Below, one piece after another: positions 31,054 through 32,099 of a stretch of DNA of 48,784 nucleotides (the first letter of the stretch is position 1; every line of letters begins with the position of its first letter). Made by a program: the position numbers and the translations under genes. The notes under the pieces were generated by a model. It was not told the DNA's origin, searched no databases, and was given only the letters and a program-made list of their open reading frames with translations. This DNA is from Gammaproteobacteria bacterium (GTDB lineage: Bacteria > Pseudomonadota > Gammaproteobacteria > UBA5861): positions 1 to 48,784 of the forward strand of contig JAKSCV010000103.1 in assembly GCA_022360445.1 (NCBI GenBank). The letters are read 5' to 3'.

Positions 31054-31083
31054 ATTTTAGCACTCAGGTAATTAGAGTGCTAA
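31054..31083 (-). promoter_or_regulatory. Candidate sigma-70 promoter of rpoH overlapping CIRCE
   Basis: On the minus strand TTAGCA (31078-31083) could be a -35 element (4 of 6) and TAAAAT (31054-31059) a -10 element (5 of 6), separated by 18 bases. The CIRCE arms coincide with both elements, so a bound HrcA dimer would block polymerase. The elements are moderate, and another promoter further up inside or before ftsX is possible. Confidence 0.4.
31057..31083. promoter_or_regulatory. Perfect CIRCE operator (HrcA site) upstream of rpoH
   Basis: The arms TTAGCACTC (31057-31065) and GAGTGCTAA (31075-31083) around 9 bases match the CIRCE consensus TTAGCACTC-N9-GAGTGCTAA at every arm position. CIRCE is bound by the heat-shock repressor HrcA, usually before groESL, dnaK or hrcA. 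Here it is in the 130-base gap between ftsX and rpoH, 59 bases before the rpoH start. HrcA is not encoded in the window. Confidence 0.93.
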
Positions 31084-31127
31084 CGGCAGGAATAGTTCAT
31101 TCTATACGGTAATTTAACGAACGGTTG

Positions 31128-32099
31128 TCAGCGGGGTTTGATTTGCGCCAAGTGACGGCTGACAGCAAGCCATGCACCCAGTAGTCCCAAAAGTGAACTG
31201 CTGACAAGCAATACCAGTAGCATGGATGGCGACAGGGTGTGTAAGCTGAACTGACTGTTGTAGAGCGTGGCCAGTGTTTCAATCGGGCCTTCGAGCAGCA
31301 TCAATGCGAGACTGATCAGCAAGATGGCAAAGAACCCGCCAAACAAACCGTACCAGAGCCCACCATAGAGAAATGGGCGCCGGACAAAAGCATCTGAGGC
31401 ACCAATCAGTTTGATGACAATGATTTCTTCCTTTCGCGCCAGAATATCCAGCCGAATGGTGTTACCTACCGCGAGAAGTACTGCAAGGCACAGCAGGCTG
31501 GCGACAATCATTACGGCAAACTGGATGACATCCAGAATCGCATACATGCGGGCCACCCATTGGGTATCAAACACAGCCAGCTCAATATTGGGCATGTGCT
31601 CGAATTCGTTGACTAGATTGATCAGTTGCGTGGACTGGTGTCTGCTGAGGTTGGGTTTGGCAATGATTACGCCGGGCAGGGGGTTCGTGCTCAGCGCGTC
31701 CAGTACGCCTCCAAACCCTGAGTGCTGCTTGAACTCGGTCAGTGCCTCTGACTGGCTGATGTAACGTGTAGAGATGATTTCTGCTCGGTCTGCCAACGCG
31801 GAAGCGATCGCTTGACCCTGTTCGTCACTTATGTCTTGGCTCAGGTATAGAGAGATTTGTGCCGAATCATCCCAGGACTGACTCACGGCTTGGGCGTTTT
31901 TGAGGAAATGATAAAAGGCCCCCGGTAGTGCCAGGGCGATGCCAATCACCGCGATGGTCATGAAGCTGGCGACAGGCGCTTGGAGCAGTTTCCCCAGGCT
32001 AAAGGTGGCCACTTCTCTGTGATGGGACAGATAAGCGTGCAGCCGGTTCGAGGGCTGTTGAGCTCGTGACTTGCGACGGTTTTGACGTTGTTGTCTCAT
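31128..32099 (-). CDS. ftsX: Cell-division ABC transporter permease-like FtsX
   Basis: This 323-residue inner-membrane protein has a cytoplasmic basic N-terminus, a first membrane span near residue 50, a periplasmic domain (about 75-190) and three further spans to the C-terminus, the FtsX plan. It works with FtsE to regulate amidase-driven septal wall splitting through EnvC and to hold the divisome. Its start overlaps the ftsE stop by 4 bp. The order ftsY-ftsE-ftsX-rpoH is conserved among gammaproteobacteria. Confidence 0.95.
   Translation of the reverse strand: MRQQRQNRRKSRAQQPSNRLHAYLSHHREVATFSLGKLLQAPVASFMTIAVIGIALALPGAFYHFLKNAQAVSQSWDDSAQISLYLSQDISDEQGQAIASALADRAEIISTRYISQSEALTEFKQHSGFGGVLDALSTNPLPGVIIAKPNLSRHQSTQLINLVNEFEHMPNIELAVFDTQWVARMYAILDVIQFAVMIVASLLCLAVLLAVGNTIRLDILARKEEIIVIKLIGASDAFVRRPFLYGGLWYGLFGGFFAILLISLALMLLEGPIETLATLYNSQFSLHTLSPSMLLVLLVSSSLLGLLGAWLAVSRHLAQIKPR

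Follow-up and report, generated by a model that had tools for sequence, protein, structure and literature searches.

The window analysed here is a stretch of 48,784 nucleotides (positions 1 to 48,784 of contig JAKSCV010000103.1, assembly GCA_022360445.1) from a draft genome of a Gammaproteobacteria bacterium (UBA5861), which comprises 3.46 Mb and is 97.9% complete. It contains a complete gene for the heat-shock sigma factor RpoH, an ftsX-like gene, and between them a perfect CIRCE element, TTAGCACTC-N9-GAGTGCTAA (Table 1). The ftsX-like gene was named from a reading of the open reading frame and from gene order (ftsX occupies this place in E. coli), with no family search. Because this gene has the orientation of rpoH and stops before the element is reached, only rpoH is downstream of the site, and the rpoH ATG is located 59 bases beyond the end of the CIRCE. 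A second CIRCE within 3 mismatches was found neither in the rest of the window nor in 100 dinucleotide shuffles of it (chance expectation, 0). An earlier note on this DNA had reported the element directly upstream of rpoH, with its arms overlapping a plausible sigma-70 promoter, and both observations were reproduced. An Rfam search of the window gave no match, and a fold test of the rpoH leader and early coding region, which is a weak test for an mRNA thermosensor of the E. coli type, gave a z score of -0.83.

Table 1. Predicted features of the rpoH control region, in window coordinates.
Feature	Position	Strand	Basis and remarks
rpoH, heat-shock sigma factor, 289 aa	30128..30997	-	TIGR02392, 404.6 bits (cut-off 323.1); complete
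Putative extended -10 of sigma-70-like promoter, TGCTAAAAT	31054..31062	-	TGCTAA from right CIRCE arm; TAnnnT in 163/183 sites
CIRCE, predicted HrcA operator	31057..31083	-	9-base arms and 9-base spacer; 0 mismatches; kept at rpoH across Gammaproteobacteria with hrcA
Putative sigma-E type -10, TCTAA	31072..31076	-	16 bp from -35; TC in left CIRCE arm, TAA in spacer
Putative sigma-70-like -35 hexamer, TTAGCA	31078..31083	-	Inside left CIRCE arm
Putative sigma-E type -35, TGAACTA (consensus GGAACTT)	31093..31099	-	Position conserved in 110/183 sites; weak alone in source genome
ftsX-like gene upstream of rpoH	31128..32099	-	ORF, reading and gene order; 5' limit of control region

The sigma-70-like promoter consists of TTAGCA, a spacer of 18 bp, and TAAAAT with a TG ahead of the -10, so that TGCTAAAAT follows the pattern TGnTAnnnT of a sigma-70 extended -10 promoter. 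A second, putative overlapping promoter, which the earlier note had missed, is of the sigma-E type and has the form TGAACTA-N16-TCTAA. GGAACTT and TCAAA are sigma-E promoter motifs (PMC4890791), and the arrangement GGAACTT, 16 bp, TCTAA reads as a sigma-E promoter. The pattern is not significant in the source genome alone, where about 2000 matches occur at 2 mismatches; since it is this common by chance and the -35 of the window is two bases off consensus, the call at the window site rests on the conserved layout described below. From the geometry of the two promoters, transcription of rpoH would be expected to start about 68 and 50 bases ahead of its ATG. A sigma-32-like promoter was also looked for at rpoH, and none was found. 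Elsewhere in the source genome, a consensus sigma-32-like promoter, CTTGAA-N14-CCCCAT, lies ahead of grpE where hrcA ends (L003, about 2210-2240).

The earlier note had proposed looking in the same genome for hrcA and for further CIRCE sites. A single copy of hrcA is present (C84:8894-9565; TIGR00331, 337.7 bits) with a grpE-like gene after it, and the whole draft genome contains two CIRCE sites within 3 mismatches, one before rpoH and one before groES, with none at hrcA itself. The only rpoE gene above the family cut-off was found at C77:10750-11319 (316.7 bits), adjoining an rseA-like gene.

Absence of hrcA from the genome and lack of conservation in close relatives had been named in the earlier note as points against control of rpoH by HrcA, and neither was observed. 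Among 80 relatives of RpoH, CIRCE elements with 0-2 mismatches were located ahead of rpoH in Granulosicoccaceae, Methylococcales, an Alcanivoracaceae bin and a Steroidobacteraceae bin, and were not found in Psychrobacter, Moraxella or Alkanindiges. In a class-wide sample, a CIRCE (up to 3 mismatches) was present at 116/125 rpoH loci of genomes with hrcA versus 4/24 without it. A hold-out set of genomes with lower rpoH score rank, mostly picked for having hrcA, gave 62/71 versus 1/9. Pooled over both sets (229 loci from 227 genomes), the counts were 178/196 versus 5/33 (Fisher test, 6e-19, with loci counted as independent). When tip pairs on separate branches were compared without a support filter (n=12), 9 were concordant and none discordant (p 0.004); a co-loss test limited to well-supported branches had 5 pairs, which lacks power, and was not significant. 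The earlier note had regarded the rpoH layout as a departure from most gammaproteobacteria, but CIRCE at rpoH is the usual state in sampled Gammaproteobacteria with hrcA, and E. coli and other lineages lacking hrcA are the exceptions. The presence of hrcA in the source genome, the conservation of the element in relatives and the way its presence tracks hrcA together make HrcA control of rpoH very likely; HrcA would bind the CIRCE and repress the gene. Its position between ftsX and rpoH might be taken to mean that the site instead serves ftsX or another transcript; this is hardly credible, as both promoters face rpoH, the gene that the site accompanies in many genomes.

Exceptions occurred in both directions. 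One of the five CIRCE-bearing loci from genomes without detected hrcA belongs to G081, in which hrcA was probably missed in the assembly because its groES CIRCE is perfect. Eighteen rpoH loci of genomes with hrcA have no CIRCE. Two genomes, G030 (L196, L211) and G159 (L214, L163), carry two rpoH copies each with a CIRCE at one only, the loci without it being second copies. Upstream regions of rpoH without CIRCE in genomes with hrcA were noted at L305, L318, L330, L335, L340, L348, L369, L375 and L377. At L306 (G275) an extra GAGTGCTAA half site stands immediately before the full rpoH CIRCE and perhaps forms a double operator. A record titled Streptomyces cinereus JCM 3040 (L029) contains a gammaproteobacterial RpoH (57% identity) and is probably mislabelled or contaminated.

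A conservation profile was generated from CIRCE-bearing sites only, aligned on the CIRCE. Outside the element, conserved bases at rpoH were GGAACTT at -16 to -10, T29, and the triplets that immediately follow the left arm (TAA) and follow the right arm (AAT); the right arm plus AAT forms TGCTAAAAT, the extended -10, whose TAnnnT is retained in most sites (Table 1). GGAACTT with up to 2 mismatches was found at one offset in 110 of the 183 sites and at any other tested offset in at most 20, and its conservation was reproduced in the hold-out half. Sigma-E-like promoters were predicted in 91 of 116 CIRCE-bearing upstream regions, versus 2.8 expected from shuffles. The motif also follows the sigma factor: each of 37 tested genomes carrying the sigma-E motif has rpoE, versus 19 of 37 without the motif, the other 18 having none (p 5e-7). 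As a control, 25 groES CIRCE sites were profiled; the operator sequence and 9-base spacer of this familiar groESL system are identical to those at rpoH, but the surrounding promoter bases are of another type (CTTGA/TTGAC around -28, with TATTA immediately ahead of the operator), and GGAACTT is missing at -16. The composite arrangement was seen on another heat-shock gene at L276 (G062:C8:47853-47895), where TGAACTT-N9-perfect CIRCE precedes a clpB-like gene; the rpoH of this genome has no CIRCE. Two further lines were rejected: scanning the phylum for the compound pattern with 3 mismatches allowed lacked selectivity and picked up groES sites as well, and covariation of the rpoH and groES operators in family f11 did not hold consistently.

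The layout bears on whether HrcA might control the sigma-70 promoter only, with the GGAACTT sigma-E promoter working independently and the overlap a historical accident. In a minor class of sites the sigma-E promoter is shifted about 15 bp upstream, so its -10 need not overlap the operator, and some Methylococcales sites have a CIRCE without the GGAACTT motif. The overlapping spacing nevertheless dominates, and an operator that covers the -10 or closely follows it should impede promoters of both classes, which leaves independence an unlikely explanation.

Lineages without hrcA can apparently retain the promoter elements while the CIRCE palindrome decays. In G147, hrcA was not detected (the genome is absent from the 205 hrcA matches), whereas its congener G242 has the gene; the rpoH region of G147 retains GGAACTT, the sigma-E -10 and TGCTAAGAT, and its left CIRCE arm is broken. 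In G067, also without detected hrcA, the left arm and TGCTAAAAT are retained at rpoH and the right arm is shifted. Neither genome has a CIRCE at groES. Persistence of these elements after loss of hrcA could be taken to mean that the palindrome is retained mainly as promoter sequence, the left arm for sigma-E and the right arm for sigma-70, rather than as an HrcA operator. This is very improbable, given that the palindrome is mostly gone without hrcA while promoter elements remain in several such genomes, and that right-arm positions needed by neither promoter (e.g. GAG) are 90-98% conserved. In a control search of E. coli, no hrcA match was obtained and the ftsX-rpoH gap contained no CIRCE. 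The gap does contain GAACTT-N16-TCTGA, which is the rpoH promoter P3, known to be driven by sigma-E (PMC8103513); P3 would fit a remnant of the composite site left after loss of hrcA.

The reading preferred here, which we hold with considerable though not full confidence, is that HrcA represses a composite sigma-E/sigma-70 promoter of rpoH and is released on titration of GroE. Two promoters would read into rpoH, one used by sigma-E (envelope or heat stress) and one by housekeeping sigma-70 with an extended -10, and the -10 elements of both overlap the one predicted HrcA operator. Binding of HrcA is supported by GroE, which unfolded protein titrates (PMC6032397). HrcA kept active by free GroE would sit on the operator, cover both -10 elements and block both promoters; when unfolded proteins titrate GroE, HrcA would leave and sigma-70 transcription of rpoH would increase, and if sigma-E is active while the operator is free, it could use its own rpoH promoter. 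RpoH would then raise the chaperone genes, and refilled GroE would restore HrcA. With HrcA covering both -10 elements, rpoH is expected to rise when chaperonin is short, and the sigma-E input would be gated by HrcA. The earlier note had placed HrcA, as the negative system, above RpoH, the positive one; HrcA control stands as very likely, but the hierarchy appears too simple with a sigma-E promoter -10 in the operator. The composite-site reading is weakened by the 18 rpoH loci without CIRCE in genomes with hrcA and by the co-loss test on supported branches. A broader proposal, to which we give slightly less than an even chance, is that the rpoH promoter of ancestral Gammaproteobacteria acted as a coincidence gate, in which sigma-E input counted only once HrcA, reporting GroE load, had left the overlapping operator, and that E. 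coli-type control of rpoH transcription is what was left over after hrcA was lost, several times.

A CIRCE at rpoH has been predicted before, in Geobacter sulfurreducens in 2004 (a perfect element about 51 bases ahead of the gene; PMC545781). This is a single prediction in another phylum, and the part of the report that concerns it mentions no sigma-E promoter. The fused sigma-E/HrcA/sigma-70 site was not found described in the literature searched, a search with most subscription papers outside its coverage. Repeated loss of hrcA provides a natural series for studying how an operator decays when it shares bases with promoter elements. What is taught about regulation of the heat-shock sigma factor comes from E. 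coli, an organism without HrcA. Should the composite site behave as proposed, the negative HrcA system and the positive RpoH system would be joined in a single circuit in most Gammaproteobacteria that have hrcA, and a chaperonin signal would gate an envelope signal at a single promoter.
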